Positions 12,418 to 60,264 of a DNA stretch of 64,000 nt are shown one piece after another; position 1 is the first letter of the stretch; each line of letters begins with the position of its first letter. The translations under genes were made by a program, and so were the position numbers. The DNA is taken from the NCBI GenBank assembly GCA_002212725.1, contig MTCR01000108.1, positions 1 through 64,000 of the forward strand. Reading direction: 5' to 3'. Source of the DNA: Sphingobacteriales bacterium TSM_CSM. Its GTDB lineage: Bacteria > Bacteroidota > Bacteroidia > Chitinophagales > UBA2359. The notes beneath the pieces were generated by a model. It was not told where the DNA came from. It saw only the letters and a list, made by a program, of their open reading frames with translations, and made no database searches.

Positions 12418-15400
12418 CTATTTTTCGGTTTTATACTGGCATCTGTCGCCATAATAACCTTCATCGCAATCGCATTTACCGGTTTGCCTGTTGCATTTGC
12501 CGTGTGCGCCGCAATCAATACCGGCGCAGGGGTTAGGAATTGTTTGCTCTGCACCGGTTTGCGGCGGGTTTTGGCATCGGTCGCCGGTATAACCATCTCT
12601 GCAAATACATTTACCGGTTTGCGGGTTGCAGGTGCCGTGTGCACCGCAGTTTATGCCGGCACAGCGGTTGGCGGGCGGGCAATCGCGCACACATTTACCG
12701 GTTTTGTCAATATAGTAGGTTTGGTTGTTTACGGTTACGCGGGCTACACCGTTGGTAAAATCATCGGCTTGGTCGTAGTATTGCCCCGGAATGGCCGGGT
12801 TGCCGGTTCGGTTTATATAAAACCACTTTCCTTCATTAAATACCCGCAACATGCCATCGGAAAAGCGGTCGGCTACCCGTTCAAATTTAAGGCTGCCGCG
12901 AAGGGTTTCCACTATGCGTCTTTCATTTTCGGCGGCAGTGTTTGAACTGTTGTTATTATTTCCCTGCTGTCCGGTTTCGTTTCCCGATGTGAGGCGGTTT
13001 CGCACTTTTACCTTAATGGGCGGGTTTTGCGGTTGTGTGGCCAATTTTATCTTAAACGGTTGCGGCGATACCAACACCCACTGCGGAGGATAGCGCAGTT
13101 CCAGTTCAATGATTTGCCCGGCGCGGAAAAATGCTTTCGGGTAAGCAAACCTGAAATTGCCGTTTTCATCGGTTACCGTTTCCATCGATTCGGTTTCCGA
13201 TTTTTCGGCAATTCCCAAATCAGATACCGCATTGCCGGCCAAATCGGTTACGGTACCATTAATATAAAGGTAATCTTCGGGGTTGGGAAGAGGTATGCTT
13301 TCGGCATTTTGGTAAATGCCGGTTTGGTAAAACCGCAGTTTGCCGGTATCGGCGGCGTGCAACACAATATACTGCCCGTTGGGAGAAAATTCGGCACTCA
13401 ACAATTTTTCATCGGGCTGAAACGAGTAACCCTGCTCAAGCGTTGCAGCACGCCAAAGTGCAGGAGTAAAACCCTGCATACCGATAATCGTTTCAGCGTC
13501 TGCTGAAAACCCGATACTTCCGGTGAGGCGCTCTTTGAGTATGACTTCTTTTACCTGTTCAAATTTGCCCGATGTTCTATACAACACCAGTTTGCCGCGT
13601 TTAGTTGCCGCGGTCAGCAGTTTACCATCGGGCGAAAAGGCAAGCGCGGTAAACAAGTCGTAAGCTTCAGTAGCGGCAATTTCCGAAATTCTTGTCTGTT
13701 GGTCGGTATTCCAGATTTCAATTTGCCCGGTTTGAGCACCGATAAACGCCAGCAAATTGCCCGCCGGCGAAATGGCAAACGTATTTTTTTTGCCGGGTGG
13801 TGTGGAAAAAGCAAGTTGCGGGTTGGGCTGTTGTGTGGCCAGGCTGTAAAACTGCAATTTACCCTCTTCAAAATTTACGGCTATTTGTTGCCCGTCGGGA
13901 GTGAACTGCAATTGGTTTACTGCACCCTTATCGTCAACCCTTATCAGTTCATTGCCGCCAACATACCAACCAATAAAGCCGCCTTGGCCGCCAACCGCTT
14001 TTATAGCGGCATTGCCCGAAAAGGCAAGTGCGGTAATAGTTCCCAGGCTGGCCCCAAAAGATTCTTTTAATGTGAGCGAGGGTAAATGCCAGACATGGCA
14101 AAGCCCTTCTTCATGTCCTGTAATAAGGTACTGCCCGCTTGCCGATATGGCATAGGCTGTTACCGGCGGCGTGGTACCGGGCAGGCGGCGCGGCGGAAAA
14201 TCAAATTCCAGCATTTGTTTTTTACCCAGCACCACGGCTAAATTTGGCGCAAATCTTTGCAGGTAATCGGGATTGGCAAGGTTTAAACTGTCGTAATAAA
14301 CCTGAGCAAGGTTGCCGTTTTGCAGCGCACCGGTTTCTTGTGTCAGCATACCGGCATTGCTGAGCAAGTAGTAGCAAAGGCCTAAATTATGCCATACATT
14401 ATACCGCAATTCGGTGGTATCGGCTTCGGTTTGCGCCCTTTTGAAAGCTTTTATTGCAATCTCATAATCATCGTTGTTGTACAGCTTTACCGCCTGTGCA
14501 TAATGCGTAACGGCTAAGTTGTACAGCGCAATGTAGTGGCTTTCATTTGTTGCCAGCGCTTGGGTGAAAAAGGTTTCGGCTTCCGTAAGGTTATTTGCAT
14601 AGAATTCATCAACGCCTTTGTTTACCAAAACTGCAGTTTGGTTTTCTGTTTCCGATTTCAGCAGGTCGCCATCGGTATAGCCTGCCCATGCAAGCCAGCC
14701 CGATAACCACAGCGCCGTACCGGGTATTGCGGCAACCAATATGCCGGTGGGCAGAGCCATTTTTTGTGTTTGCCTGGTTATGGCAAGGTAAACCAGATAA
14801 CCTGCCGCAATAACCAGCACCGCAGGGCCTAATGCCAACACTACCAAAATGGCGGGTATATACCAGGGCAGTTGTTTGCCCCACTGTGGCAAAGCACCGG
14901 CAAATGCTTTTTTCCACAACGCTTTATTGCGCAGTTGCCGGCTGTACTCTTGTGCTGTGTCGGGCACGGTTTCTTCGGGGGGTGGTTGCAGGCGGGCGTT
15001 AAACCATTGTTTAAGGGTTTGATGCAGTTGGCCGGCACCGGTTGCGGGGGTGTCTTCGTAAGGCAGGTTTTGCTGTGCTGCCTGTTCCTGTTGGCTGATG
15101 TTGCCCTTTGTTTTATGCGTTTTTTGTTGATTTTGCCGGTTTGCCAGCTCGCTTTCGGCATGTTGAAGCGCGTTGCCGGCTTCGGTGAGTTGCTGCTGTA
15201 CAAACTGCTCTTTTTTGCGGCGGGCAAAAGAGTCGTCTTTCAGGTCAATACTGTCTAACAACTCAATGGCGGCTTTGCGTGCCACCAGTTCTGCCTGCGG
15301 TGTATGCCTTAGCTCATCTAAAAGATATTGCCTGACCGGCGGGGGCATGTATGCCTGCTGAAGCCAGGGCAGCCGTGCCAGCAGCAGCAGGTTGTTGTGA

Positions 15401-17259
15401 GTGGCAGTTTGTCCCGATATTAACCCGTTTTCTTTGAGCGCTTTTGCAACGGCCAAGGTTATTTCCCAGGTTATAGGTTCAAAGCAAACCAAGGCACAGA
15501 GCAAGGTGTACAAACCTTCATCGGGGTAGCCGTTTTCATCGGGTACGGTAAGGTATTGTTTCAGCGCATTCCAGTCCACATTGGGGTTATCGGCACTGTA
15601 AATTGGCATGGATGCGCGGCGCTGCGTGCGCATAAAGCGGGTGTGCAACTTTTTAAAATCGGTGGCTTCGTCAGATGAAAGCAGTTCTGCCAGTTGTGCC
15701 TGCCCCTGCAAATTGGCGGGCAATACCACAAACACATTGCTGAGCAATCGTTCGCGGTACATCCAGTGTTCGGGTTCGGCGGGTGTTACCAGGGCGCGGC
15801 GGTTCCATGTTTCAAAGGCGGGCAATACCCAGTCTTTGAGTTGTGGCCGCAGGGGGTTGAGCAGGTAATCGCCATCATCTAACAACACCAGGCGGTGCTT
15901 TGGGTACAGGCGTGCCAACTCTTCCAGCGGTAAGCCATCGGGGTGGGCGTTGTTCCAGCAAATGCGCGGGTCTTGCCGGAAAAAAAATTTTTCGATGAGC
16001 ACATTTTCACGCGCCAGCGTATCAATCCAGTTTTCAAAAAAGCGCGCCCGGTGGTCGTTCTGGCAGGTATGGTCTATTAGGGCAAGGTATTCTGTTGCCT
16101 GACTTTGGCGGTCGTAGCAAAGGGTTACCATACCGCCGGCTTTAATGGTTTGCCGGATGGTTTTTACCATATTGAGTTTTACCGCCTCGCTGCTTTGGCG
16201 CTGCCGCATGGCATTGGCAACTTCATACACCTCTTGCACGGCTTCAATATTGGCTTCCTGCGACGGAAAAGGGATGTTGAACGGCGCCAGATTGCCACCC
16301 CTGGCATTTTTGGCTTGCTGCCGGCGCAAAAACTCCGAAAGTTGGTCGTCGGCAATTTGCCGGGCCATTTGGGTAAGACGGGTGTACCAGTTTGAAATGA
16401 GCAGAAACAGCACCAAAAAGAAGAGCAATCCGCCTGCCAGAGCAAGTATTTTTTGCCAGCTGAAGCGGCTTACAATTAACTCCGAATCGGCCTGCGGAAA
16501 CATTTGCGGCAGGGCAATTTTTTGTTCCGAAGCGGTAACGGTTATGGTAACGCGATAGGTACTGTCGCAATTTTGCTTGTCATCGGGGTAAAAAGCGGCG
16601 AGCGAGACAGATAACAACCCCGAACGCATAAAGGTATGCGAAACGGTATCGGCATTGGTTTGCACCCCTTGTCCATCGCTAAAATTCCAGCTAAAGGTAG
16701 TATTTTGGTTGGTTTTTGTTTGGTTGGTAAAGGTAACCTGTTGCCCTGCCTGTATAGTAGTTGGGTTTGCCCTGAAGTAGGTTGGGGGTTTTTGACTGCT
16801 TGGGCAGGGTTCTGCCGCAACAGGGCGGAATTTAACCGGAGGAGACAGTTCTGATGCTTGCCGGCTTTCTCTGATTTCGCCAATCAAAACATAAAGTCCC
16901 CATGCAAGCAGGAATGCAGCCAGGCCAATTCCCAAAAACAGAAACAAGTATTTGGGCGATAGTTTTGTGCGGTTAACCGGCACAGGCGGCAGGGGCAGTT
17001 CGGGCAGGGTTTCCGATGCTTTGATTTGCTGAATGTAATAATCGAACAGGCGGTTAAACTTTACCTGTTCGGGTTCGCTGTTGGCAATTATGGGGCAAAG
17101 CACTTCTTTCAGCGCTTCGGGGTTGGAGCGGTATTTGTTGCCGGTTGCCAGCAAAATTTGTTCTATGCGCAGCAAGGTATCCATACTAATGGCAAACCCT
17201 TCTGCTTCGAGTTGAAACAGCAGAGGTTGCAAAAACGGATATGTGTGTTGTGCCGGCAA
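12418..17259 (-). CDS. giant membrane protein: vWA-like, PKD, TPR, WD40, WG, EGF modules (MoxR-vWA system core)
   Basis: A 1613-residue protein. Order: N-terminal helical domain (1-80), membrane segment (104-127), PKD domain (157-242), membrane segment (270-291), degenerate vWA-like domain (386-515; YLALIDHTCQNDHRA instead of a DxSxS MIDAS, then HRLVLLDDGDYLLNP and RRALVTPAEPEHW), helical region with Q-rich coiled coil (580-760), two membrane segments (797-828, 836-860), TPR units (873-970), WD40 propeller (about 1030-1325), carboxypeptidase-regulatory fold (about 1328-1415), WG repeats (about 1460-1525) and two EGF-like units (1531-1563, 1576-1608). The start is TTG at 17257-17259, kept because the conserved-looking N-terminal domain begins at once; the next ATG is residue 26. 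It follows the MoxR gene by 34 bases. Membership in a conflict system is inferred. Confidence 0.8.
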   Translation of the reverse strand: MPAQHTYPFLQPLLFQLEAEGFAISMDTLLRIEQILLATGNKYRSNPEALKEVLCPIIANSEPEQVKFNRLFDYYIQQIKASETLPELPLPPVPVNRTKLSPKYLFLFLGIGLAAFLLAWGLYVLIGEIRESRQASELSPPVKFRPVAAEPCPSSQKPPTYFRANPTTIQAGQQVTFTNQTKTNQNTTFSWNFSDGQGVQTNADTVSHTFMRSGLLSVSLAAFYPDDKQNCDSTYRVTITVTASEQKIALPQMFPQADSELIVSRFSWQKILALAGGLLFFLVLFLLISNWYTRLTQMARQIADDQLSEFLRRQQAKNARGGNLAPFNIPFPSQEANIEAVQEVYEVANAMRQRQSSEAVKLNMVKTIRQTIKAGGMVTLCYDRQSQATEYLALIDHTCQNDHRARFFENWIDTLARENVLIEKFFFRQDPRICWNNAHPDGLPLEELARLYPKHRLVLLDDGDYLLNPLRPQLKDWVLPAFETWNRRALVTPAEPEHWMYRERLLSNVFVVLPANLQGQAQLAELLSSDEATDFKKLHTRFMRTQRRASMPIYSADNPNVDWNALKQYLTVPDENGYPDEGLYTLLCALVCFEPITWEITLAVAKALKENGLISGQTATHNNLLLLARLPWLQQAYMPPPVRQYLLDELRHTPQAELVARKAAIELLDSIDLKDDSFARRKKEQFVQQQLTEAGNALQHAESELANRQNQQKTHKTKGNISQQEQAAQQNLPYEDTPATGAGQLHQTLKQWFNARLQPPPEETVPDTAQEYSRQLRNKALWKKAFAGALPQWGKQLPWYIPAILVVLALGPAVLVIAAGYLVYLAITRQTQKMALPTGILVAAIPGTALWLSGWLAWAGYTDGDLLKSETENQTAVLVNKGVDEFYANNLTEAETFFTQALATNESHYIALYNLAVTHYAQAVKLYNNDDYEIAIKAFKRAQTEADTTELRYNVWHNLGLCYYLLSNAGMLTQETGALQNGNLAQVYYDSLNLANPDYLQRFAPNLAVVLGKKQMLEFDFPPRRLPGTTPPVTAYAISASGQYLITGHEEGLCHVWHLPSLTLKESFGASLGTITALAFSGNAAIKAVGGQGGFIGWYVGGNELIRVDDKGAVNQLQFTPDGQQIAVNFEEGKLQFYSLATQQPNPQLAFSTPPGKKNTFAISPAGNLLAFIGAQTGQIEIWNTDQQTRISEIAATEAYDLFTALAFSPDGKLLTAATKRGKLVLYRTSGKFEQVKEVILKERLTGSIGFSADAETIIGMQGFTPALWRAATLEQGYSFQPDEKLLSAEFSPNGQYIVLHAADTGKLRFYQTGIYQNAESIPLPNPEDYLYINGTVTDLAGNAVSDLGIAEKSETESMETVTDENGNFRFAYPKAFFRAGQIIELELRYPPQWVLVSPQPFKIKLATQPQNPPIKVKVRNRLTSGNETGQQGNNNNSSNTAAENERRIVETLRGSLKFERVADRFSDGMLRVFNEGKWFYINRTGNPAIPGQYYDQADDFTNGVARVTVNNQTYYIDKTGKCVRDCPPANRCAGINCGAHGTCNPQTGKCICRDGYTGDRCQNPPQTGAEQTIPNPCAGIDCGAHGKCNRQTGKCDCDEGYYGDRCQYKTEK
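12436..12669 (-). repeat. two tandem EGF-coding repeats in the giant gene
   Basis: Two 33-codon units, 12571-12669 and 12436-12534, 135 bases apart, each encode an EGF-like unit with six Cys (CAGI-CGAHG-CN-QTGKC-C-GY-GDRC). 24 of 33 residues or more are identical, which suggests a recent internal duplication. Confidence 0.8.
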
Positions 17260-17293
17260 AGTACAGGTTTTAAAACGGGGGTACTAAAAAATG

Positions 17294-18250
17294 TTAGCGT
17301 GCGGCGAGTAAGATTTGCAGGTCGTCGAAGGTTTTTGCCAGAATAGAGTAGCTGATGCGCATGATTTTTTGCTGGTCATCGGGCGATTTTTTGAGGAAAT
17401 CGCGGTTTTCCAACATTTTTACCCAGTTGAGCAATTCGGCCGTGGCCGGCTTTTTTTTGGTTAAAATGCGGCGCACTTCCATAAAAATGTTGATTAAATC
17501 CATGCTGGCATAGGGCGAGTTGGCGCCAAGGTGGTTTTGTAAAATGGAGAGCAGTTTGCCTTCATCGGGAAACGGAATGTGGTAAAACACGCAGCGCCGC
17601 AAAAAAGCATCGGGCAGGTTTTTTTCGGAGTTGCTGGTCATTATGACAATAATTTTGTGGGCATCGTCTTTTACCAGTTCCGTGTTATTATCTTCTTTTA
17701 TTTGAAAGGCAAACCGCTCAATTTCGTACAATATGTCGTTGGGAAAATCGCGGGGTGCCTTGTCAATTTCATCGAGCAGCACCACCGAGCCGCCGGTAAA
17801 GGCGGTAAAAGCGGGGTCTTTCAGGTATTTTCGGCTGATTTCGGCGGCGGGCATGGTAAGGGCAATGGCTTTTCCCAAGGCCTGCAACTCAATGTACTGG
17901 CTAACGGGCGGCAGCGCTTGCTGGGTTTGTTTGTTTAGTCCGGCATCGTAAAAATGCCTGATGGCATCGTACTGGTAAAACAAATCATTGGACGAGGAGG
18001 TGGTTTTGGTATGAAACACCAGCGGATTGGGTAAAAAATTGGCGTTATTGCGGTTTAAATCATAGGCTACTTTATATGCCAACTGGGTTTTACCCGTTCC
18101 GGGTTCGCCGGTAATGAGCAGGGGCATTCCCAGTTGAATGGCTACCTCAACGGCTGCCTGCAAAGCGGTATCCAACTGGTAGGCCTGCGGCTTTGGTTTG
18201 TTAAAGCCGGCCTCTTGTATTTGGTTAAGACGGAGGTTTATTTCTGACAT
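17294..18250 (-). CDS. MoxR-type AAA+ ATPase
   Basis: A 318-residue AAA+ ATPase. Walker A is GEPGTGKT (48-55), Walker B VVLLDEIDKAP (156-166), sensor 1 is within TSNSEKNLPDAF (205-216) and the arginines after it (R218, R219) fit the finger position. The DEIDKAPRDFPNDIL stretch is characteristic of MoxR/CbbQ-like ATPases, which remodel partner proteins carrying vWA domains. It sits 26 bases downstream of the TIR-like gene and 34 bases upstream of the vWA-like giant gene, an operon order seen in MoxR-vWA conflict systems. In such systems the ATPase is thought to license or assemble the effector complex. Confidence 0.93.
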   Translation of the reverse strand: MSEINLRLNQIQEAGFNKPKPQAYQLDTALQAAVEVAIQLGMPLLITGEPGTGKTQLAYKVAYDLNRNNANFLPNPLVFHTKTTSSSNDLFYQYDAIRHFYDAGLNKQTQQALPPVSQYIELQALGKAIALTMPAAEISRKYLKDPAFTAFTGGSVVLLDEIDKAPRDFPNDILYEIERFAFQIKEDNNTELVKDDAHKIIVIMTSNSEKNLPDAFLRRCVFYHIPFPDEGKLLSILQNHLGANSPYASMDLINIFMEVRRILTKKKPATAELLNWVKMLENRDFLKKSPDDQQKIMRISYSILAKTFDDLQILLAAR

Positions 18251-18276
18251 TTCGGTTTGTTTTTAGAATTAAATGT

Positions 18277-19575
18277 TTATTCTATTTCGCTGTTGTGTTG
18301 CCGTATAATTTCTTCCAGCTTTTGTTCCACTTCACACATATCAAATTCGGTTTGCGTGCCAAAGTATTGGTTAAGCAAGGCAAGACGGTTGGCAACATCG
18401 GTTTGCCGCAGGGTAGATTCGAGCCATATTTCAATATCAACTTTTTGAACTGTATCGAGTGGTGCCAACAACTGTGCGGTGATATTGCGCTGTAAAAATT
18501 TTTCTTTCAGTATTCTCAATTCATCTTCAATTGCCTGCCGGTGTATATCGCCGGCATAATCAATCATAAGGAAAAAAATGAAAACAGGCATATCGGGCTG
18601 ATGGTAGTTGCAAAAATCGGTTACCAGCCAGTCAAGAAACAAAGGCACCGAAGCATTCCAATGTTCGCTTTTCAGCTTTGCGCCCACACAAACCACGTCG
18701 TAGGTGCGCACACACAGCGCATTGAGCAGGTGCGAAATGTTGCCGTTAAAAAAAATTTCCTGGTTGCTGCATTTTAACTGGTCACACAAATCAGACAGGA
18801 AATTGAGTTTAAATACTTCGGGGTCGGCATCGGGAACGAGTGGAATATATACAAAGTTTGGTGAAATATTTTTATTTCCGAATATGGGATTTCCGGGGAT
18901 TTCGCGGTGGTAAAACCGCCTGCTCAATCCTTCGGTAGATTGTTTTACCAAGCCCCTGATGTAGTAGTACTGAATTTTTGCGTTGCGGTTTTGCAGGGTA
19001 GATTTTAAAAACTCGCCCTTTTGTACGCTGCGGTTGCAGGTATATTTCAGTTGCAGCATTTTAGGAATACCGGCTTCCTGATGCGGCGGCGAGGGCAGGG
19101 AGGTAAACGGCTTATCTGGTACCGGCGGCAGCAGCCCCAAAATTTTACCGAACAGTTTTTTCAGTTCTTCAATAACCTCGTTGTATAACTGACTGTCGGT
19201 TTTATCGCTGAGCGGTATGTTATCGGCGGGCAGCATGTGCAGGTTTGTCAGTTCGGGCACAACTTTCCAATCGCAATTTCCGGTCAGAACGGGTACTACG
19301 CGCTCGCTTGGCAGGTGGGTAAGGTTGCTGCTGATGCGCAGGTATTCATCGGAAATAAGGTAATCTATGCTGATGAGCAACAGCAACATTTGCGCCGATT
19401 GTATGGCTTTTGCCTTTTCCGCTTCCGGGTCGGCTCCCAACAAAACGTCTTTTTCACTCCAAAGCTCTATAAGCCCCTGGTTTTCCAGCAATTTCAGTTG
19501 CTTGGATATAGCGGTATAGTATTTCGCATCTTCGGGCGAGTAACTGATTACCAGTTTTAACGGTTCGGGCGGCAT
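18277..19575 (-). CDS. TIR-like domain fused to putative inactive STAND domain
   Basis: About 432 residues from ATG 19573-19575; an in-frame TTG at 19635 would add 20 residues, but it overlaps a likely promoter region. The N-terminal 150 residues look like a TIR domain: KLVISYSPEDAKYY, LIELWSEKDVLLGAD, AQMLLLLISIDYLISDEYL. Many TIR domains cleave NAD+ or make cyclic ADP-ribose signals; the catalytic Glu cannot be assigned with certainty. The C-terminal half starts with NRSVQKGEFLKSTL and has QYYYIRGLVKQSTEGLSRRF, like the NR..Q...F and G.....SL..R features of inactive STAND (iSTAND) domains, with no Walker motifs. It is the first gene of the minus-strand operon with MoxR and the vWA-like protein and is a candidate effector or sensor. 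Confidence 0.72.
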   Translation of the reverse strand: MPPEPLKLVISYSPEDAKYYTAISKQLKLLENQGLIELWSEKDVLLGADPEAEKAKAIQSAQMLLLLISIDYLISDEYLRISSNLTHLPSERVVPVLTGNCDWKVVPELTNLHMLPADNIPLSDKTDSQLYNEVIEELKKLFGKILGLLPPVPDKPFTSLPSPPHQEAGIPKMLQLKYTCNRSVQKGEFLKSTLQNRNAKIQYYYIRGLVKQSTEGLSRRFYHREIPGNPIFGNKNISPNFVYIPLVPDADPEVFKLNFLSDLCDQLKCSNQEIFFNGNISHLLNALCVRTYDVVCVGAKLKSEHWNASVPLFLDWLVTDFCNYHQPDMPVFIFFLMIDYAGDIHRQAIEDELRILKEKFLQRNITAQLLAPLDTVQKVDIEIWLESTLRQTDVANRLALLNQYFGTQTEFDMCEVEQKLEEIIRQHNSEIE

Positions 19576-19732
19576 GGCATGTTGGATGAATTGCAAATTT
19601 GCATTCTTTTTCTCAAACGATGCTAAAATATGCAAAATTTATGGCAAAGCAAGGCAATTTTAAACAAAATTGGTAAAATTTACCGTTCTTTTGTGCAACA
19701 ATCTGCCGTAAAAGGCAAAATACTGTAATACA

Positions 19733-21517
19733 ATGAAATATACCCTGCCGTTATTTATTGCCGTTTGCCTGTTTGCATCTTCATTTTCAGTTTTTGCACA
19801 ACAAACCACCATTGGCGGGTTGCCGGCTGTTATAACCGAATCATCGGGGCTGGAAAATTTTACCGGCAACGATTCGCTCCTTTGGTCGCACAACGACAGC
19901 GGCGGGCAACCCGATGTATATCTGTTTAACCTGAACGGACAGTTAATTCACACCATACACGTAAACAATTATGCCAACTCCGATTGGGAAGACCTGGCGC
20001 AAGACGAAGCGCAAAACCTGTATATTGGCGATTTTGGCAATAATGCCAACAACCGTACCGACTTGAAAATACTCAAAATTCCGGTTGCAGGTTTGCCCGA
20101 TACGGTTATTGCACAGGTAATTACCTACCACTACCCCGACCAAACCGCGTTTCCGCCGCCTACCAACAGCGGCCGCAATTTTGACATGGAGGCCTTTTTT
20201 TACCATAACGATTCGCTTTACCTCTTTTCAAAAAATGTGTTTTCGCTTACCAGCCCCGGAACGGGTTATACCAAGTTATATACCTTGCCCGCCATACCCG
20301 GCAACCATGCAGCCCAACTTATTGACAGCCTTTCTACATTCTTTCCGGTAACGGCGGCAGATATTGCACCGTCGGGTAAGGCGGCAGTGTTGTTGTGTTA
20401 TACCCGCATGTATGTTTTGTACAATTTCTCCGGCAATAATTTTTTAAACGGTCAGCAACAGATGTATAATATTACACCCCTGTTTCCGCCAAAACAAACC
20501 GAAGCAATTGTTTTCAGAGATTGTGCCTCGGTATATATTACCGCCGAAGATGGTGATTTATTGGTGTATGATTTTTCGGCCGATTTTCCGCCTCCGGCAG
20601 TGCAAACCGGCAGCAATCATGTAACCATTTGCGCGGGCGATACTGCCCAACTCTTTGCCTGGGGCGCAAGCAGTTATGCCTGGCAACCGCAAACCAGCCT
20701 TGATTTACCCAACGCAGCCAACCCATTTGTTTACCCTGCCCAAACAACCCTCTATACCTGTACCGCTTACAACCAAATTGGCTGTACCGATACCACACAA
20801 GTGTTGGTAACCGTGGAAAACTGCCCCCTGGCAACCCAAATCACCTGCAAACTTTGGTTGGAGGGTGCTTATAATGCCACATCGCAAAATATGAACACCT
20901 ATTTGAATACGGCTGGTTTGCTGCCACTCTCACAGCCGTTTAACCGTCCTCCATGGAATTATGCCGGTCCCGAAGGACTGAGCGCACCCTTTATTTTACC
21001 GCCCGATGTAACTGACTGGGTGCTGGTTGAAATACGCAATGCCACTACTATGCAGGTGGTAAGCCGCAGGGCTGCCTTGTTACTTAGCAACGGCTTTTTG
21101 CACGACGCTGCCCTTGTGCAACAAGGAACCGGCAACCCCGGTGTGCTGCTGTACGGCTTAAACAGTGCCGATAGTTATTACATTTCTGTGCAAACCCGCA
21201 ATCATTTGGCCCTGAACAGTGCTGTTTCTCAACAACTTACAACCGGCACACCGGCAGATTTTACCCTGCCCGCAAATGTGCAAAGCGGCACCAAAGCCCT
21301 TAAATTATTGGGCACAAACTGGGCAGCCTGTGCAGGCGATGGCAATATTGACGGCATTATATCGTTTGAAGATTTTAACAGATATGCAACCGAACAAGGC
21401 ACTTCAGGCACATATTCCGATTTGGACTTTAATTACGATGGCGTGGTTAATATTGCCGATTATCAGTTGTATCAGGCTAATGTAAGCCGTATTGGGGTTC
21501 CTGAAATAAGACATTGA
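19733..21517 (+). CDS. secreted protein with Ig-like and dockerin-like modules
   Basis: A 594-residue exported protein with a signal peptide (1-23, ending VFAQQ). Residues about 25-285 look like a beta-propeller or esterase-like domain (WSHNDSGGQPDVYLFN, DWEDLAQDEAQNLYIGDFGNN), a pattern often annotated as SdiA-regulated or esterase-like activity. About 290-370 is an Ig-like segment (ICAGDTAQLFAWGASSY). The C-terminal 60 residues hold two calcium-loop motifs, DGNIDGIISFEDF and DFNYDGVVNIADY, as in dockerin type I repeats. There is no T9SS sorting domain. It is divergent from the TIR-like gene and is followed by mltG on the same strand. Confidence 0.7.
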   Translation: MKYTLPLFIAVCLFASSFSVFAQQTTIGGLPAVITESSGLENFTGNDSLLWSHNDSGGQPDVYLFNLNGQLIHTIHVNNYANSDWEDLAQDEAQNLYIGDFGNNANNRTDLKILKIPVAGLPDTVIAQVITYHYPDQTAFPPPTNSGRNFDMEAFFYHNDSLYLFSKNVFSLTSPGTGYTKLYTLPAIPGNHAAQLIDSLSTFFPVTAADIAPSGKAAVLLCYTRMYVLYNFSGNNFLNGQQQMYNITPLFPPKQTEAIVFRDCASVYITAEDGDLLVYDFSADFPPPAVQTGSNHVTICAGDTAQLFAWGASSYAWQPQTSLDLPNAANPFVYPAQTTLYTCTAYNQIGCTDTTQVLVTVENCPLATQITCKLWLEGAYNATSQNMNTYLNTAGLLPLSQPFNRPPWNYAGPEGLSAPFILPPDVTDWVLVEIRNATTMQVVSRRAALLLSNGFLHDAALVQQGTGNPGVLLYGLNSADSYYISVQTRNHLALNSAVSQQLTTGTPADFTLPANVQSGTKALKLLGTNWAACAGDGNIDGIISFEDFNRYATEQGTSGTYSDLDFNYDGVVNIADYQLYQANVSRIGVPEIRH

Positions 21518-21608: not shown

Positions 21609-22649
21609 ATGACACAACGCTTTAAACGCGTATTTTTTACCTTGCTTACCGTTGCCGGCTTGTTGGTTACAGGTGTTTGCATTTATGCATGGCTGGCCGT
21701 TTTTGGTAACAACATAACAAAAACAGATAAAGAACAACACGAACTGTTTATCAGAACCGGCTCCGGTTTTGAGCAGGTAAAACAAACCTTAACTGACAGT
21801 AATATAATAAATAATCCCACTACATTTGAGTGGGTTGCCAGGCGCATGAACTACCCCAACAAAATTTACCCCGGCCGTTACATTATTAAACCCGGCATGA
21901 GCAACCGAAGTCTGGTAGCCCTGTTGCGCTCAGGTAAACAAACACCCTATAATTTGGCCATTAACAACATAAGAACCAAAGAACAACTGGTAACACTGGT
22001 TTGCAGTAAGCTGGAAGCCGACTCCACAGAACTGAAGCGCATGTTAAATGATACGGCCTACCTTACCCAATACAACCTTACACCCGATAAGGTAATTGGC
22101 ATTTTTATTGCCAATACTTACCAGTTTAACTGGAACACCGGTGCCGAAGCCTTTTTTAAGCGAATGAAAAAAGAATATGACGATTTTTGGACCAATGAGC
22201 GCATACAAAAAGCCGAAAAACAGGGAATTACCCCGTTTGAAGTCATTACTTTAGCCAGCATTGTTGACGAAGAAACCGCACAACCCGATGAAATGAATAA
22301 AATTGCCGGCGTTTACTACAACCGGTTGCGGCAGAAAATGCCCCTGCAAGCCGACCCCACCATAAAATTTGCTGTTGGCGATTTTGCCCTGCGCCGCATT
22401 CTTACCGAACATCTTGCCATTAACTCGCCCTACAACACCTATAAAAATATTGGTTTGCCCCCCGGCCCTATACGCATTCCATCTATGGCAGCGCTCAATG
22501 CCGTACTTAACCCCGAAGAGCATAGCTATGTTTATTTTTGTGCCCGGGAAGATTTTTCGGGTTACCACAATTTTGCGGCTACTTATGAAGAACATCTCAT
22601 TAACGCCCGCAAATACCGCGACGAGTTAGACAGGAGGAATATAAAATAA
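21609..22649 (+). CDS. mltG: endolytic transglycosylase MltG
   Basis: A 346-residue membrane-anchored lytic transglycosylase. One N-terminal membrane segment (about 10-31) is followed by a LysM-like region and the YceG catalytic domain. Landmarks are ANTYQFNW, the active-site block ITLASIVDEETAQ (E. coli has ASIVEKET around catalytic Glu218), LQADPTIKFAVG, INSPYNTYKNIGLPPGPI and YVYFCAREDFSGYHNFA. MltG cleaves nascent glycan strands in the periplasm and sets strand length. The Asp in ASIVDEE replaces the first Glu of the E. coli block; which residue acts here needs an alignment. Confidence 0.94.
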   Translation: MTQRFKRVFFTLLTVAGLLVTGVCIYAWLAVFGNNITKTDKEQHELFIRTGSGFEQVKQTLTDSNIINNPTTFEWVARRMNYPNKIYPGRYIIKPGMSNRSLVALLRSGKQTPYNLAINNIRTKEQLVTLVCSKLEADSTELKRMLNDTAYLTQYNLTPDKVIGIFIANTYQFNWNTGAEAFFKRMKKEYDDFWTNERIQKAEKQGITPFEVITLASIVDEETAQPDEMNKIAGVYYNRLRQKMPLQADPTIKFAVGDFALRRILTEHLAINSPYNTYKNIGLPPGPIRIPSMAALNAVLNPEEHSYVYFCAREDFSGYHNFAATYEEHLINARKYRDELDRRNIK

Positions 22650-22758: not shown

Positions 22759-25700
22759 TCAAGCCTCTTTCACCTGGTTAATGATGTTCTCCCAGCGTTT
22801 AAACTGAATGCCCATTTTATCGGCTTGTTGAAAGCGCACCGATTTTGCCAGCAGCAGATCAATAAATTCATTGCGTTTTTCGCGTGCCATTACTTCGCGG
22901 TAGCCGCCGTAAACCTGTTTAAAATAGCCCGAAATTTCATTGAGGAGCAACAACAGCAGGGTTTCGCCGGTTTCTATAAGGTGGGCATTGCCAGGGCTGC
23001 CATCGGGGTAGCGTAAAATAAGGTCAATAATATTAATGCTGCCCTCTGTACCTGCAGCAGCATAATAAAGTGCCTGCGATTTTTTGTAGAAAGTATGCTG
23101 TTCCATATTATCAAGCAACTCTGCGCTGTCGCGCTGTTGCTGTTCGGCGGTGCGCTGCAGGGTTTTGTCCACTATAATGGGGTTGTGCAGCAAGGCATCG
23201 CGCAATGAGTGAATGTAACGGTCAACGGGTTTATCGCCAATGGTAATGAGGCGGCTGCCTTTGTCGTCATAAAAGAGCCAGGTAATGCGGCCGTATTCGT
23301 TTATGTTTTGAAGATAGCCCATAATTATACCCCACAACAGGGCGCGGTTAATTTTGAGTTCATCTTCTTTCATGCGTTGGGGCGAAAGTTCCGGCAAATA
23401 TGCCTGCAGGTGCCACCGTTTGTCGAGGTGCGGGGTAACAGTGTTGCCTTGCTGAGTGAGTTTTAAAATGCGTGCGGTATAGGCTTTGTAATATTCGCCC
23501 GGTTGTGCGCCTTTGTCGTCGCCACAGTAGAATTTAGGAAACTGGTCAATGGTAAGGCCGTAAATGGTGCGGTTTCTGATAATCTGATAAGTTGAAAAAG
23601 CCTCATCGGATACCAAATCGGTTCCGCTGAAAATTTCACCTTTAGCACTTTCCGAAAGTTCTTTAACCGAATCGGGGTGTGCGCCCCAGGCATTTATTTC
23701 GGTAGAGGCATTTACAGCGGGCACAAAGGGGCGCGCAAGGTTGTTTAAAACCGAAATCCGGCGTTTAATATACTGGTCAATCTGGTCATCGGGGGTATTG
23801 GACATTTCGGCTTCGCGGCGCAGGGCACGTATGCAGTTCAGGTTCAGGCTGTCTTCTTTGTATAGCTGTTTCCGGCACCAGCCCACCACATCGGCGCGGT
23901 ACATTTCCTCCACTTTTTCCACGCTGATGTCGGTAATATAGTCGCCTTTCCGGGCTTTGCCAAAGCGGGCGTACTGCCCCTTGTAAATTTCGGCCGAAAT
24001 TTCAGGTGGCATTTCATCGGTACTTACCCGCATACGCATATTTTCCCAAAAGCGTTCTTTATCTGCTTTTTTAGAAAGTACATAGCTAACGGTGGTATCG
24101 CCCGAATTTTCGTGTTTTTCAGCCAGCAGGTTTAACTCATTGGTAAGACTGTTGCGGGTATCGCGCAGGTTGCGGAAGTATTTTTCCCAGTCTGCCTGCA
24201 TTTCCTGCAGGGCTTTTTGCAGTTCGCGAAATACCAGTTCGGTGAGGCGGTCTTTTTTAAACCGGTTGAGGTTGTTGAGTTGCTTGCCCGATTTATCAAT
24301 GTATTCGTTCATGAAATCCTTAAACTGGTTGCCAAAAATTTTGCCCACCAGCCCTTGTTTAAGCGCTTTGTCTATGCGGTCATCTGCTGTTTCAATTATA
24401 CCATCGGTTTCGTCTAAGTCATACGCTTTTTTGTAGTACTCAATTCCCTGGTCAAGTTTGTCGTTCAGTGGGGTAAGGCCGTTAATGCGTTGTTCGAGCA
24501 GGTAATCAATATGGTACAACATATACCGAACAGCCACGGGGTGCAAGGGTTCGGTTTGTTTCAGCATCCAGGTATTAAGTTTGTAGTCGTCGCCGCTTAA
24601 TTTTTGGGGATGGTCATAATCTTGCAGTACAATTTCGTTGAGCAGGTAATTTTTGGTGCTGTGTATAAATTTGCGCACTTCCTGTTCGTAGATAAACAGG
24701 GCTTGCTCCCGGTTTCCCACCTCATTTCGGGCGGTTAGCTTATCATTCAGGCGGTTTTCGTCTAAATCGCACTGCCCCTGTAGTTCGCGCAGCCGCACGT
24801 TGTCGTTAATGGTAGCCTCTATACGGCGTTCTACTGCTTCTATGAACAATTCGGCTTTAGGTCTTCCAATTTCGTTAAATTTGTCAATAATATGTACAGA
24901 GCGGAAAGCCAGTTTGTAAAAAGGTCTTGGGTTTTGCTGGGTGGCCAATCCTTGCAGAATTTCGCGGTAGCGGTCGCGCAGCAGGGGTTTTGAACGTGGT
25001 ATGCCGTTTCTCAGGTCTAATTCGTACTGTTTATAGTCGGCGTCAAATTGTTCGTCAATGCGCAGCCAATCATTAGAAAGGCTGTCGGTACTCCAACGCA
25101 GAGAGCAATAATAAACAATATCGTCGTAAGGATATTCGAGCGATGCAACACCTGCACCGCAATACCGGTTCATTCCGCCTTTTTCTATAACCGCCAGAAT
25201 TTGGTTATCTTGTTTAGAAAAGCGGTCGTTGCTCATTGGGCTGAACAGGTCGAGGTAAGTGGCACGTGCTACCTGATTTATGTAGTTGCCAAAAAACTTG
25301 AGGTTGTTTTTTTCGGTATTTTCAAAATCAAACATAAACCCGAAATTATAGGGCAGGTTACGGGAGGTAATGACGTGTGCCAGTCGTCCCTGGGCATCTA
25401 CCTGATTGGGTTTGTACTCCAGTTCTATGGCCACGTTTTGCTCCTCGTTTTGTCCGCTGGCGTTGCGGGTAATGGCGTTTAGTTCTTTAATAGAGGCATA
25501 GGCATTGGCGCGGATGCTTTCTACCTCATCGCCTTTAATTACGTTGGTAAGCACAAAGGTATCGGGCAAAATAAATGCGCCACGTATAAGCACATTGCGG
25601 CGCTGAAAGTCAAATTCCAGCACATCGCGCATGTACATGGCAGTTTGCAGGAAAATGCCCGAACCGGTGCCGCCAACAATAGAGCAAACAATCATTACCC

Positions 25701-26118
25701 TTGCGCTGCTGGAGGCATCGCTGCCTGTTTCGCGGAAGATGTGGTTAATGCTGTTGTGGAGGTTGCCTAATTTACCGCTTTCCATGGCAGCGCGGTAAGC
25801 CAGGCGCGATACCGACCGGATTTGCCCTGCGCCATCGGTAAGTGATTTGCGCAGGATTTCTTTTTGCTCAAAGGGGAACCAGTCTTTTACCGATGCATCA
25901 GCCATGCGCAGATATTCCTCTACGGTCCAGTTGGTACTGGTTTGGGTAATGTTTTCGCGGTTCAGGTTTTTTAGTTTGGTAATATCATTTACGTTGGTAT
26001 CAAAGGCATGAACAGCCACAAAACTGCGGCGGTGCGGGGGTATCCAGCTATAGACTTTGTCAACAATTTGGGAGCCTATACCACCTAACCCGATGAGAAT
26101 AGTTGGAACGTTGGTCAT
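22759..26118 (-). CDS. tubulin/FtsZ-like GTPase domain protein, 1119 residues
   Basis: The N-terminal 450 residues match the prokaryotic tubulin-like family (Tubulin_2): TILIGLGGIGSQIVDKVY (7-24) as nucleotide-binding start, SIVGGTGSGIFLQTA with the tubulin signature GGTGSG at 149-154, and FILPDTF. The rest is a long, mostly helical region with many charged residues (about 450-850 likely coiled coil) and a C-terminal domain ending in FKRWENIINQVKEA. Such large tubulin-like proteins are not cell-division FtsZ; in other bacteria they occur near vWA or chaperone-type conflict genes. The operon at 12.4-19.6 kb is on the same strand but separated by two plus-strand genes. Role unknown. Confidence 0.82.
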   Translation of the reverse strand: MTNVPTILIGLGGIGSQIVDKVYSWIPPHRRSFVAVHAFDTNVNDITKLKNLNRENITQTSTNWTVEEYLRMADASVKDWFPFEQKEILRKSLTDGAGQIRSVSRLAYRAAMESGKLGNLHNSINHIFRETGSDASSSARVMIVCSIVGGTGSGIFLQTAMYMRDVLEFDFQRRNVLIRGAFILPDTFVLTNVIKGDEVESIRANAYASIKELNAITRNASGQNEEQNVAIELEYKPNQVDAQGRLAHVITSRNLPYNFGFMFDFENTEKNNLKFFGNYINQVARATYLDLFSPMSNDRFSKQDNQILAVIEKGGMNRYCGAGVASLEYPYDDIVYYCSLRWSTDSLSNDWLRIDEQFDADYKQYELDLRNGIPRSKPLLRDRYREILQGLATQQNPRPFYKLAFRSVHIIDKFNEIGRPKAELFIEAVERRIEATINDNVRLRELQGQCDLDENRLNDKLTARNEVGNREQALFIYEQEVRKFIHSTKNYLLNEIVLQDYDHPQKLSGDDYKLNTWMLKQTEPLHPVAVRYMLYHIDYLLEQRINGLTPLNDKLDQGIEYYKKAYDLDETDGIIETADDRIDKALKQGLVGKIFGNQFKDFMNEYIDKSGKQLNNLNRFKKDRLTELVFRELQKALQEMQADWEKYFRNLRDTRNSLTNELNLLAEKHENSGDTTVSYVLSKKADKERFWENMRMRVSTDEMPPEISAEIYKGQYARFGKARKGDYITDISVEKVEEMYRADVVGWCRKQLYKEDSLNLNCIRALRREAEMSNTPDDQIDQYIKRRISVLNNLARPFVPAVNASTEINAWGAHPDSVKELSESAKGEIFSGTDLVSDEAFSTYQIIRNRTIYGLTIDQFPKFYCGDDKGAQPGEYYKAYTARILKLTQQGNTVTPHLDKRWHLQAYLPELSPQRMKEDELKINRALLWGIIMGYLQNINEYGRITWLFYDDKGSRLITIGDKPVDRYIHSLRDALLHNPIIVDKTLQRTAEQQQRDSAELLDNMEQHTFYKKSQALYYAAAGTEGSINIIDLILRYPDGSPGNAHLIETGETLLLLLLNEISGYFKQVYGGYREVMAREKRNEFIDLLLAKSVRFQQADKMGIQFKRWENIINQVKEA

Positions 26119-26332
26119 ATGTAATTGGGTATATCTGGTTTATGCCGTTAAAGTAAGGAAAAATTGGCAATTTACAAGTTTTACGTCGATAATGAATTAA
26201 AATTGGTTTAACCTACGCAAATATAGGTTCATTTTTTCAGCAAATAAAACCCGAAAGCGGTGTTACCTTATTTTTATTTTTCAGATACGGCTTAGTTGGG
26301 CAGGTTATGCTTTATAGTGCCTGGTTGGGGCA

Positions 26333-50323: not shown

Positions 50324-50331
50324 TATCTTTG
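50324..50331 (+). promoter_or_regulatory. -7 promoter element of the Roco gene
   Basis: TATCTTTG, a perfect TAnnTTTG match, 15 bases before the ATG at 50347. Its TTG has been read as an upstream start in frame, but a promoter reading is more likely. Confidence 0.6.
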
Positions 50332-50346
50332 CAACAACAGAAAACC

Positions 50347-52902
50347 ATGGAGAGCAATGCCAGTATAACAGCTTTGGAGCGAATTCGGGAAGCACAGTTT
50401 GCAGGAACGTCCGTTTTAGACCTCAGCAACCTGGATTTAACCTTCCTTCCCGAAGAAATTGTGCAATTAAAGCAACTCAAAGAATTATGCCTCCAAAACA
50501 ACCTGCTTTCTTCGTTGCCGGCAGAAATTGGCAACCTGCCCCAACTACGGGTCATTCATGCTTCGGGAAACCAGATTGCACAGGTGCATAAAGCCATCAA
50601 AAAGCTCAACCAACTTTCAGAACTGTTGCTCAATGATAACAAATTGAACAGCTTGCCCTACGAATTTGCACAACTTGGGCAGTTGCAAACCCTGAACCTG
50701 AACAACAATAATTTTACCGATGTGCCAAGGGCACTGAAACAACTGCCCCGCCTTAGCTGCCTGCACCTTTGCAACAACCGCCTGCAACGCCTGCCCGATA
50801 CCATTTCGCAAATGACCGAATTGGAAGAACTCTATATATCCGGCAATGAAATTGATAAACTGCCCGATACCATAGGACAACTTTCGCTGCTGCGCGTATT
50901 GCAGGTTAACCACAACGTTTTAACCATACTGCCGCCGGGCATAGGGCAACTTAGCCTGCTTACCGATTTAGATGCCTCGCACAACCTGCTGCATTCATTG
51001 CCATCGGAATTGGCACAGTTGCGCCAACTAAAACACCTCAACCTGTCAGACAACAGGCTTTCTAACATTCCATTGCAAATAAAAAACCTCACCCAATTGC
51101 AAAACCGTCCGGGGAAGCCCGGATTTAACCTTGCCAACAACCGGTTTAACGTGCCCGAAGAGCTGTTTGACCGCCGCCCCGGTGAAATTATACAATACCT
51201 GGCAGACCTGCAACTGTCAAAAAACAAAAAACCCCTGCACGAAGCCAAACTCATCTTCATCGGGTCGGGCGAAGTGGGTAAAACTTCGCTCATCAGCATG
51301 CTTACTACCGGAAGCTATAACCCTGCCGAACAAAAAACCGATGGCATTCAAATACAAGATTGGGAGGTTAAGCGCGGGAACGACCATATTAAACTGCATA
51401 TCTGGGATTTTGGCGGACAGGAAATTATGCACGCCACCCATAAATTTTTTATGACCGGACGAAGTGTTTATGTACTCGTTATCAGCCCCCGAACCGAAGA
51501 CCGCTATGGCGACTCAGAACTGGAGTACTGGCTCAAACTCATACGCTCTTTTGCCGGCATGGATGTGCCCATTGTTGTAGTCATAAACAAGTGCGAAACC
51601 CATAAATTAGACATTGCCAAAGGACATCTGCGCGATAAATACCCCAATATTGTTGAATTTGTGGAAACCTCCTGCAAAGACAACCTCAATATTGATAAAT
51701 TGGAAAACGCCATTACCGTCGCCATTTCAGAACTAACACATATTGACGACCTGCTGCCCAAAAGCTATTTTGAAATTAAACAGCAACTCGAAACCAGCAA
51801 CAAAGATTTTATTTCCTACCACGATTACCAGAAAATATGCCTGCAAATTGTGCCCGATTTTACAGAAGCCAGTATGCAAACACTGGTAAACCTGCTTCAC
51901 GACCTGGGCGTAATGCTTAACTTTAACGACGACCGAAAACTGAAAGACACCCATGTGCTAAACCCCGAATGGGTAACGCAGGGCGTTTACCAGATTATTA
52001 CCTCGCCCCGCCTCATCAGCAAAAAAGGCATCTTGTCTATAACCGAGGTAAAACAAATTCTGGACCCCAAAAACTACCCTACCGACAACGAACGGTTTTA
52101 TATTATGGATATGATGCAGCGTTTTGAACTCTGCTACCAGATTACCGAAACCGATAACAACTTTTTTATTCCGGGTGCTTTTCCGAAAGATAAACCCCAT
52201 TTTGAGTGGAACTATATGCCGGCCGACCTGCTGCGTTTTCAGTATAAGTACGACATTATGCCGGCAAGCATTATGGCACTGTTTATTGTAAAAGTGCATA
52301 ACTATATACGAAACAACGATTTTTGGCGAAACGGCGTGGTGCTGCGAAAAGACGGCTGCGAAGCGCTTATACAAGCCGACCCCCAAGATTGCAAAGTGTA
52401 TATTGAAGTAGGCGGAATGGGCAATATGCGCGAAATGCTGGCCTTTGTAAGAAGCCAGTTTGAAATATTGCACAGCCGTTTTAGCAACCTTACCATTAAA
52501 AAACTCATGGTCTATACCGAAAAAAACGAAACAGCACTCATAGATTTTGATGCGCTGCTTGTTTACGAACAACTTAGAGAAGAATACATGGTAGTGCCCG
52601 AACTGAAGAAAAAACTGTCGGTAAAAAAACTGCTCAGCGGCATAGAACCCGACTCGGCAAGCACACGCAACCAATACCTTGAGAAAGAGGGCATTAACCA
52701 ACGGCAGCGCCGCGAAGATGCCTTTGCAGATACCATAAACACAGGGCAAACCCGGGCAACACTGGCAAGCGGACTAAAAACCATGACCATTCTTAAAATT
52801 ATTGGCGCTACTTTGGCCGGAATTATTAGCCTTTTAGCCGGAATTGCCGAAATAACCGGAGAAAACCTCTTAAATTTGTGGCACATTATAAACGGCAAAT
52901 AA
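50347..52902 (+). CDS. Roco protein: LRR, Roc GTPase, COR domain, C-terminal membrane segment
   Basis: An 851-residue protein from ATG 50347. About ten leucine-rich repeats span residues 15-265 (units such as LPDTIGQLSLLRVLQVNHN). The Roc GTPase follows: P-loop FIGSGEVGKTSLI near 303, G3 DFGGQEIMHATHKFF near 350, G4 VINKCE near 412. A COR dimerisation domain spans about 470-735, and a hydrophobic segment (LKIIGATLAGIISLLAGIAEI) lies near the C-terminus. Roco proteins are GTP-dependent signalling ATPase-like switches; bacterial roles are poorly known, and several occur in defence-related loci. No clear partner gene is adjacent. Confidence 0.92.
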   Translation: MESNASITALERIREAQFAGTSVLDLSNLDLTFLPEEIVQLKQLKELCLQNNLLSSLPAEIGNLPQLRVIHASGNQIAQVHKAIKKLNQLSELLLNDNKLNSLPYEFAQLGQLQTLNLNNNNFTDVPRALKQLPRLSCLHLCNNRLQRLPDTISQMTELEELYISGNEIDKLPDTIGQLSLLRVLQVNHNVLTILPPGIGQLSLLTDLDASHNLLHSLPSELAQLRQLKHLNLSDNRLSNIPLQIKNLTQLQNRPGKPGFNLANNRFNVPEELFDRRPGEIIQYLADLQLSKNKKPLHEAKLIFIGSGEVGKTSLISMLTTGSYNPAEQKTDGIQIQDWEVKRGNDHIKLHIWDFGGQEIMHATHKFFMTGRSVYVLVISPRTEDRYGDSELEYWLKLIRSFAGMDVPIVVVINKCETHKLDIAKGHLRDKYPNIVEFVETSCKDNLNIDKLENAITVAISELTHIDDLLPKSYFEIKQQLETSNKDFISYHDYQKICLQIVPDFTEASMQTLVNLLHDLGVMLNFNDDRKLKDTHVLNPEWVTQGVYQIITSPRLISKKGILSITEVKQILDPKNYPTDNERFYIMDMMQRFELCYQITETDNNFFIPGAFPKDKPHFEWNYMPADLLRFQYKYDIMPASIMALFIVKVHNYIRNNDFWRNGVVLRKDGCEALIQADPQDCKVYIEVGGMGNMREMLAFVRSQFEILHSRFSNLTIKKLMVYTEKNETALIDFDALLVYEQLREEYMVVPELKKKLSVKKLLSGIEPDSASTRNQYLEKEGINQRQRREDAFADTINTGQTRATLASGLKTMTILKIIGATLAGIISLLAGIAEITGENLLNLWHIINGK

Positions 52903-57178: not shown

Positions 57179-57769
57179 TTATAGCTTTATATTTCCGTTT
57201 TCATCTAATAAATCGGGGTTAATCCAGCCGCCGTTGGGCTGTAACCCTTTTTTCCAATGCTCCTCCTGTTCCGGTGTCATTTGCACAGGTTTTTTTTCCC
57301 ATTCCTCCACTAAATCTTTGCAGGTACAATACTCCAAACCCCATGGACATTGTTCCGGTTCATAATGGCAAAACTCTAAGTGCAAATGCCCTACCGATGT
57401 ATAGCTTACAGGGTGTTCTCTCCAGTAGTTGCGAAATGCGCGGTACAATAATTTAGCGGGCACATTGTCCGGAAAATCGGCAAGTATATTAAATGCCTGC
57501 CAGAGGTTCAGAATGGCATGGCAAAGGCTTTCGGCTTGTTTGTTGGTTAGCAGCTCAACGGGCGGCAGCGCATCGGGCGATATGCCAAACAGTTCTTCCA
57601 TTGGTTGTTCATCGCCCATTTCCCACTCTATAATGTAGTCTAAGCCTCCTTTGTATTTAGGATCTGCGGCGGGGTGGTTTGGGTACAGCAAGGCATAATC
57701 TTTTGGCGGAGGCAGGTTGTTTTGCGCGGTTTTAAGGTCTTGGAGGAGCTGGGTGATGTAGGTTTGCAT
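57179..57769 (-). CDS. uncharacterised protein with Cys-rich C-terminal motif
   Basis: A 196-residue soluble protein I do not recognise. N-terminal helix MQTYITQLLQDLKTA, a middle part with PVELLTNKQAESLCHAILNLWQAF and PAKLLYRAFRNYW, and a C-terminal motif LEFCHYEPEQCPWGLEYCTC (C-x7-C-x6-C-x-C) that may bind metal. Proteins with a similar E-FC...C....YC-C ending occur widely in Bacteroidota, so the gene may be a passenger here. It lies ten bases downstream of cmr6 on the same strand, so it is probably in the cmr transcript. Confidence 0.7.
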   Translation of the reverse strand: MQTYITQLLQDLKTAQNNLPPPKDYALLYPNHPAADPKYKGGLDYIIEWEMGDEQPMEELFGISPDALPPVELLTNKQAESLCHAILNLWQAFNILADFPDNVPAKLLYRAFRNYWREHPVSYTSVGHLHLEFCHYEPEQCPWGLEYCTCKDLVEEWEKKPVQMTPEQEEHWKKGLQPNGGWINPDLLDENGNIKL

Positions 57770-57779
57770 GTTGCCGGTA

Positions 57780-59133: not shown

Positions 59134-59165
59134 TTGTAGTATGGTTTTGGAAATATGAATTCTGT

Positions 59166-60212: not shown

Positions 60213-60264
60213 AATATTGTATTTTTCGTTTGTTAAATTACTATGTGTGTCAATTATTCTTGTT

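Follow-up and report, generated by a model that had tools for sequence, protein, structure and literature searches.

A tubulin-like FtsZl1 protein of Chitinophagales and its probable place in a four-protein membrane system with vWA, X and Y partners

Introduction

A stretch of 64,000 nucleotides from Sphingobacteriales bacterium TSM_CSM (contig MTCR01000108.1, positions 1 to 64,000; hereafter the window) carries a large gene for a tubulin-like GTPase, P0001, about 3 kb from an operon that encodes TIR and MoxR-type proteins. Does the product of P0001 act with the conflict genes beside it, as its position had suggested, or with partners encoded elsewhere in the genome? P0001 belongs to the FtsZl1 family, set out by Makarova and Koonin in 2010 (PMC2875224; part of that text is drawn on throughout, as is part of PMC7159879). 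The initial annotation had called this type of tubulin poorly understood, and we found no report on the function of FtsZl1 proteins in the literature searched. The family and its partnership with a von Willebrand factor A (vWA) protein are already known. As far as the literature was searched, what is new is a four-member set in Bacteroidota that is encoded in trans yet co-inherited, and within it two families that we call X and Y. The set draws attention to two uncharacterized families of proteins and defines a concrete complex that can be tested, and the case shows that the neighbors of a single gene can mislead.

Results

P0001 has a tubulin-type N-terminal domain

P0001 lies on the minus strand; the plus-strand reading of the same interval is interrupted by stops. 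Its features are:

22759..26118, minus: P0001, FtsZl1/Tubulin_2 gene, a single open reading frame with an ATG start, 1119 amino acids (aa)
25084..26100, minus: Tubulin_2 GTPase domain, residues 7-345, predicted tubulin/FtsZ/CetZ fold (Pfam, AlphaFold2 model, Foldseek and VIA-align)
26071..26091, minus: T1-like nucleotide loop GLGGIGS, residues 10-16; G12, G13 and G15 conserved to 90% or more across 26 diverse Tubulin_2 domains
25657..25674, minus: T4 tubulin signature GGTGSG, residues 149-154; G149 and G150 invariant, T151, G152 and G154 at least 90% conserved in the 26 domains
25204..25209, minus: D304-N305, tentatively the T7 (catalytic-loop) residues; neither varies among 12 orthologues, and N305 is at least 90% conserved in the 26 domains
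22762..25083, minus: C-terminal region (residues 346-1119), predicted to be mainly helical and invariant among orthologues at many positions
26218..26225, minus: promoter-like element TATATTTG, which fits TAnnTTTG about 100 bases 5' of the ATG, inside a 214-base gap; a consensus match only

The Pfam family Tubulin_2 (PF13809) matched residues 7-345 with an E-value of 1.7e-52 and a score of 179 bits (cut-off 27). Pfam gave a weak, sub-threshold match to Tubulin (PF00091; E 0.006) and none to FtsZ_C or Tubulin_C, the canonical C-terminal domains of FtsZ and tubulin. P0001 is the sole Tubulin_2 gene found in the window's assembly (G000). Ten other genomes of the window's family hold orthologues with 62-96% identity over about 1119 aa, two of them cut by contig ends, indicating that the frame is not a chance one; a further genome, G006, holds a diverged orthologue (27-28% identity). 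The large tubulin-like GTPase read from the sequence at the outset is therefore borne out, as is the exact position of its GGTGSG signature.

Structural comparison pointed the same way. A model of residues 1-430, built with 26 diverse family members, had a predicted local distance difference test score (pLDDT) of 75 and a predicted template modeling score of 0.68. Foldseek gave 49 PDB matches at E <= 0.001, the best of them to CetZ, TubZ, PhuZ and FtsZ (lowest E 4.2e-8), and VIA-align superposed the model on CetZ with a Z score of 19.7 over 254 residues (root-mean-square deviation 4.3) and on FtsZ and tubulins with Z scores of 17-18.5, at about 10-19% identity over the aligned part. When the PDB was searched by sequence, the orthologue profile found no tubulin and three chance helical matches; a profile of diverse N-terminal domains found CetZ (E 0.0037), followed by gamma-tubulins above 0.4. 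By predicted fold and motifs, the N-terminal domain of P0001 is a tubulin-type nucleotide-binding domain.

The T1-like loop (GxGGxG near residue 12) is named by analogy with FtsZ, and N205 and E212 are also invariant or nearly so in the 26 domains. The spacing from D304-N305 to GAGVAS recalls what we take to be the T7-H8-S7 region of FtsZ. This assignment is tentative because a profile-profile comparison with E. coli FtsZ aligned the T4 loop only (probability 1.4) and failed to confirm T7. The C-terminal part is long and mostly helical, as had been noted from the sequence, according to DSSP on a full-length AlphaFold2 model of low overall confidence (pLDDT 64). That model was kept out of the fold search, and its helicity, rather than a coiled-coil score, was the measure of a coiled-coil C-terminus.

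Upstream of P0001, on the same strand, an ABC-F gene ends 214 bases away; downstream lies a convergent mltG/YceG gene. TAnnTTTG is the -7 promoter element of Bacteroidetes, and TATATTTG suggests that P0001 has a promoter of its own. From the gap, the convergent mltG and this element, P0001 is probably a separate transcription unit.

vWA, X and Y genes are co-inherited with the tubulin gene

Gene order outside the window points to three partners. In G006 the order is vWA-tubulin-X-Y. One Saprospiraceae contig (L066) has vWA-tubulin and a second (L068) tubulin-X-Y; G274, elsewhere in the phylum, has tubulin-X-(186 aa)-Y; G007 has vWA-(360 aa)-tubulin; and in G008 tubulin and X are joined through a 55-base identical overlap of contig ends. 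The vWA gene thus adjoins or nearly adjoins the tubulin gene in G006, G007 and L066, and in the window's genome it is encoded in trans (G000:C171). Within the window's family the four genes are spread over two to four loci. In most of the other family genomes the vWA gene sits by itself amid other genes and X and Y are paired; X and Y are separate in G003, G008 and G009. The genes surrounding the vWA and X/Y loci look ordinary.

Despite this scattering, presence of the partners follows that of the tubulin. Among 20 genomes of the family, 12 carry the tubulin gene, and vWA, X and Y were each found in 11 of these and in none of the 8 non-carriers. The missing vWA is that of G008 and the missing X and Y are those of G000; in G013, X is split over two contigs. 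Across the order (396 genomes), the tubulin gene is present in 13, and Y in 12 of these 13 and in 0 of 383 others (Fisher p 5e-22); the 396-genome sets for the two genes were taken as identical from their equal number and shared handles. Co-inheritance of four proteins whose operon has broken up is strong evidence that they form one machine.

The 360-aa protein between vWA and tubulin in G007 resembles OmpA in its C-terminal part, by eye only. Having no Pfam match and occurring in 1 of 20 genomes, it was rejected as a general component.

The partners are predicted membrane proteins

Hydropathy analysis of 11 vWA partners placed a transmembrane (TM) segment between residues 544 and 580 in all of them, followed by a short C-terminal tail, and, at a strict cut-off, a hydrophobic stretch at the N-terminus of 7. 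The D, S and S of the DxSxS motif are invariant in 12 proteins. Pfam called a vWA domain in the G007 member (E 5.9e-10) and none in the members from G006 and the window's genome. The vWA domain is predicted to be periplasmic, with a signal peptide and one TM segment. X proteins (about 570-740 aa) have a TM pair, or hairpin, near residues 490-550 in most full-length members, and Y proteins (1030-1280 aa) have TM helices at the N-terminus, both by hydropathy. Neither reached the cut-off of any Pfam family or matched an NCBIfam family, and a Pfam search that covered X and Y, rather than the whole genome, matched neither to GAP1, DO-GTPase or FNIII.

The Y proteins of L068, G274 and G006 end in a cysteine-containing stretch with a zincin-like HExxH motif, and two of them match the DUF6782 metallopeptidase family weakly, below cut-off (L068, E 0.03; G274, E 0.0076). 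In the scattered group, all nine complete Y proteins stop before this stretch. The Y frame of G709 spans 1281 aa and may include it. Neighboring genes in all these comparisons came from a simple longest-frame caller, which gave wrong strands in the GC-rich L125; annotated coordinates were used there.

Proximity to the TIR/MoxR operon is not conserved

The genes between P0001 and the operon, and the operon itself, are:

21609-22649, plus: mltG/YceG, between P0001 and the TIR/MoxR operon
19733-21517, plus: gene for a secreted protein (hydrophobic N-terminus)
18277-19635, minus: TIR-iSTAND gene (Pfam)
17294-18250, minus: MoxR-type AAA gene (Pfam)
12418-17259, minus: gene for a 1613-aa PKD/TPR/WD40/WG/EGF protein with TM segments (Pfam)

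This layout agrees with the initial annotation, which had placed P0001 on the operon's strand and apart from it by a secreted protein and mltG. It had also counted a vWA gene in the operon; for the 1613-aa protein there is no vWA domain among the Pfam families listed (25 of 33). Conservation of the neighborhood had been proposed as the check on a link, and MoxR lies within 8 kb of the orthologue at 2 of 16 loci (L010 and L011, both without flanking genes, included). These two are the window and G002, a near-identical sister (96% identity) with the same 3.1-kb distance, strand and two intervening plus-strand genes, and they belong to one clade. In G001, the third genome of the genus (75% identity), an intact TIR-MoxR-WD40 operon stands on another contig than the tubulin gene, whose neighbors there are a subtilisin-like protein and two Ser/Thr kinases (second and third genes upstream). 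Of 20 genomes searched, only the three from this genus yielded a full-length relative of the TIR-iSTAND protein; the tubulin profile matched 9 genera of the family. Since the linkage is not conserved among orthologue loci, an outcome that the initial annotation had named as refuting a link, we rejected adjacency as a sign of joint function.

The operon at 12418-19635 resembles the ternary conflict systems with MoxR, iSTAND and beta-propeller proteins described by Kaur et al. (2020) in the part of PMC7159879 drawn on. It has the TIR-iSTAND and MoxR components of the MoxR-vWA iSTAND ternary systems, whereas P0001 has no conserved linkage to it. The best reading is that the operon forms a conflict system of its own, of MoxR-iSTAND type, and came to adjoin P0001 in this sub-lineage.

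TIR genes recur near the tubulin gene

TIR genes of differing architectures lie within 3.2 kb of the orthologue in 3 of 8 lineages (G000/G002, G003 and G009), or in 4 with a weaker match in G004, against about 0.08 expected; this estimate is post hoc and assumes uniform placement, and conflict genes cluster. G000/G002 and G013/G017 were each counted as one lineage, and G010 and G008 have no flanking genes on the tubulin contig. The TIR or TIR-like genes adjoining the orthologue in three other genomes are:

L021:17794-19458
L022:113-475
L012:2593-3324

The L012 protein has no Pfam match and was called with a small home-made profile of four sequences, one of which (L056) is the N-terminal part of a longest open reading frame and may not be pure TIR. 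No TIR gene was found on the partner contigs (0 of 11 for vWA, 0 of 14 for X/Y). The initial annotation's statement that such tubulins occur beside vWA and conflict genes is supported for vWA, through a different vWA protein that is encoded in trans here, and in part for TIR (3 of 8 lineages, post hoc); for the MoxR operon it is not supported.

Distant relatives and a second FtsZl1 subfamily

A plasmid of Azospirillum ramasamyi encodes a relative with 23% identity that covers 82% of P0001, followed by proteins of 710 aa, 1118 aa (a weak Y match) and 897 aa (a vWA-profile match). The Y profile matched the 1118-aa protein at E 2.6e-6 in a set of 16 proteins, the best single stretch giving 4.4e-4. 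Three Thermales plasmids (L127, L129 and L130) all have the order vWA, tubulin-like gene, hypothetical gene (677-686 aa), brxL, with a transposase gene intervening in one. As the X profile matched neither the 710-aa protein nor the 679-aa Thermales protein, their likeness to X is one of position, plus a TM segment in the former. PADLOC models had no match for P0001, the vWA partner or the 679-aa protein, and we found no literature match for tubulin-like proteins with BREX (bacteriophage exclusion) and anti-phage functions.

The Meiothermus copy of the Thermales cluster adjoins DUF1156 and HmaC/DUF499-type genes, and a plasmid of Azospirillum sp. TSA2s has a tubulin-like gene amid caspase-family, OmpA and DUF4384 genes (L128:13393-20405). 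Viral contigs yielded one distant relative of P0001 (24%). A phage collection held one record with a vWA-tubulin pair, MT836542.1, marked UNVERIFIED; because its first open reading frame resembles bacterial purC by eye, we took it for a bacterial scaffold and not a phage.

The window's family also contains a second, shorter FtsZl1 subfamily (G005, G006, G014, G015 and G018), paired with a partner of about 1355 aa and, where the flank is present, with a vWA-type protein. All four partners scanned have a calpain-type peptidase domain (E 8e-20 to 1e-24):

L027:3465-7535
L083:3797-7861
L028:6229-10296
L030:2846-6913

Two of these large partners show a weak Tubulin_2 match after the calpain domain, as if the protease had been inserted in a degenerate tubulin. 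In G014 (L083:3797-15886), the minus strand carries MoxR and VWA_CoxE-like genes directly upstream of genes for vWA, a lipoprotein, the second-subfamily FtsZl1 and its calpain partner.

Discussion

P0001 is probably the cytosolic FtsZl1 GTPase of a four-protein, membrane-associated system, vWA-FtsZl1-X-Y. In such a system, GTP binding would let the tubulin domain form polymers or act as a switch on the inner side of the cytoplasmic membrane, where X, Y and the C-terminal tail of the vWA protein would hold the tubulin scaffold. The periplasmic vWA domain could read a ligand or a metal-dependent contact and relay it to the scaffold. Where Y ends in HExxH, as in relatives outside the scattered group, that end would serve as a peptidase output; Y of the window's group lacks it. 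A membrane-tethered scaffold for signaling across the envelope is the most likely function, and we place less weight on membrane remodeling or defense.

Several points weigh against this reading. The GTPase activity, polymerization and partner contacts of P0001 are ones that we infer from sequence, and D304-N305 are its T7 residues tentatively. Twelve of the 13 carriers in the order come from one family, so their presence patterns do not amount to independent observations in phylogenetic terms. The window's assembly yielded neither X nor Y, and no vWA gene was found in the G008 assembly, which is rated 98% complete. The miss in G000 is best explained as an assembly gap, because the DNA around X-Y in G002 matches a G000 contig (C117, 7938 bases) and this syntenic flank stops 386 bases before the contig end. 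Finally, the recurrent TIR neighbors are left unexplained by the four-protein system, and a conflict role is possible.

Such a role could take two forms. That P0001 serves the adjacent TIR-iSTAND/MoxR/WD40 system as effector or scaffold appears very unlikely. In both the window and G002 the gene and the operon share a strand and are separated by 3.1 kb, 3-4 of 8 lineages have TIR genes close to the orthologue, and FtsZ/tubulin domains are reported to act as rare effectors in MoxR-vWA systems, with tubulin genes also in GAP1-N2 GTPase conflict systems (PMC7159879, in part). But MoxR is close at only 2 of 16 loci in one clade, G001 keeps the operon intact on another contig, two plus-strand genes, one of them mltG, intervene in the window, and a full-length TIR-iSTAND relative was found in genus g1 only, against nine family genera for the tubulin. 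We regard as doubtful, too, an anti-invader system with protease output, scattered in the window's family and set among defense genes elsewhere. A conflict role has precedent, because the GTPase-centered conflict systems of Kaur et al. include tubulin-vWA pairs from Firmicutes and Actinobacteria, in the text drawn on (PMC7159879). This form would account for brxL beside vWA-tubulin in all three Thermales plasmids, one near HmaC-type and DUF1156 genes, for the HExxH stretch in Y of three relatives, the calpain domain in all four second-subfamily partners scanned, the caspase genes adjoining an Azospirillum FtsZl1, and the TIR genes near the orthologue. It fits poorly with the absence of PADLOC matches for the tubulin, vWA and 679-aa proteins, with the ordinary genes around the vWA and X/Y loci, with a tubulin that is widespread in the family, unlike mobile defense genes, and with the loss of the HExxH stretch from Y in the window's group.

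A membrane-remodeling role was proposed for FtsZl1 by Makarova and Koonin, in the text drawn on (PMC2875224): filaments would make the inner membrane bend or bud, and vWA and envelope proteins would have accessory roles. P0001 belongs to that family and has the kind of partner described for it, each of X, Y and vWA is predicted to be a membrane protein, and the third protein of G007 looks OmpA-like by eye. That protein, however, has no Pfam match and occurs in 1 of 20 genomes, we saw no direct sign of membrane bending, and the peptidase-like parts in Y of several relatives better suit a signaling or effector output, so we judge remodeling unlikely. Rather less likely still is a bolder version of the four-protein signaling system, in which vWA-FtsZl1-X-Y would be an envelope-spanning signaling cytoskeleton, comparable in bacteria to an inflammasome-like assembly, that leads from a periplasmic vWA sensor through a GTP-driven scaffold at the inner membrane to a protease arm. 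That arm would be the zincin-like end of Y, the calpain domain of the sister subfamily or, elsewhere, caspases or BrxL. The window's family would then have lost the output arm of Y as its operon scattered, and the nearby TIR genes might be replacement outputs.

P0001 shares with the FtsZl1/Tubulin_2 proteins of PMC2875224 an N-terminal FtsZ-like domain, a long helical C-terminal part and a vWA partner, and the kinases near some members have a parallel in the two kinase genes near the G001 tubulin. Its GGTGSG also fits the family's GTP-binding loop motif, GGTG(S/T)G, and GTP hydrolysis and filament formation would be expected of such proteins. The window's family differs in encoding its partners in trans; the OmpA-family protein is unconfirmed there, and a separate P-loop GTPase gene was not recognized among the neighbors scanned here. 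X or Y could belong to the unnamed A and B families of that paper; no description of X or Y was found in the literature searched. The GAP1-N2 DO-GTPase systems with tubulin (PMC7159879) are alike in having a tubulin with a helical C-terminus, a membrane-bound extracellular vWA protein and a membrane-proximal complex. In the part of that paper drawn on, this theme is reported from Firmicutes and Actinobacteria, and its GAP1, DO-GTPase and FNIII domains have no Pfam match in X or Y. With CetZ, FtsZ, TubZ and tubulin, P0001 has its N-terminal fold in common (Z 17-20), but it has a C-terminal extension of >700 aa and no FtsZ_C or Tubulin_C match.

Other genes of the window

Three further loci were noted in the window:

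57179-63921, minus: Type III-B (Cmr) CRISPR genes, with a Cas10/Cmr2 palm, Cmr3, RAMPs and a Cas_APE2256-type protein
50329-52902, plus: 857-aa leucine-rich repeat (LRR)-Roc-COR protein with Roc GTPase and COR-A/COR-B domains
864-1310, plus: 148-aa SET-domain protein, between a transposase gene (24-818) and a PhoD-like phosphatase gene

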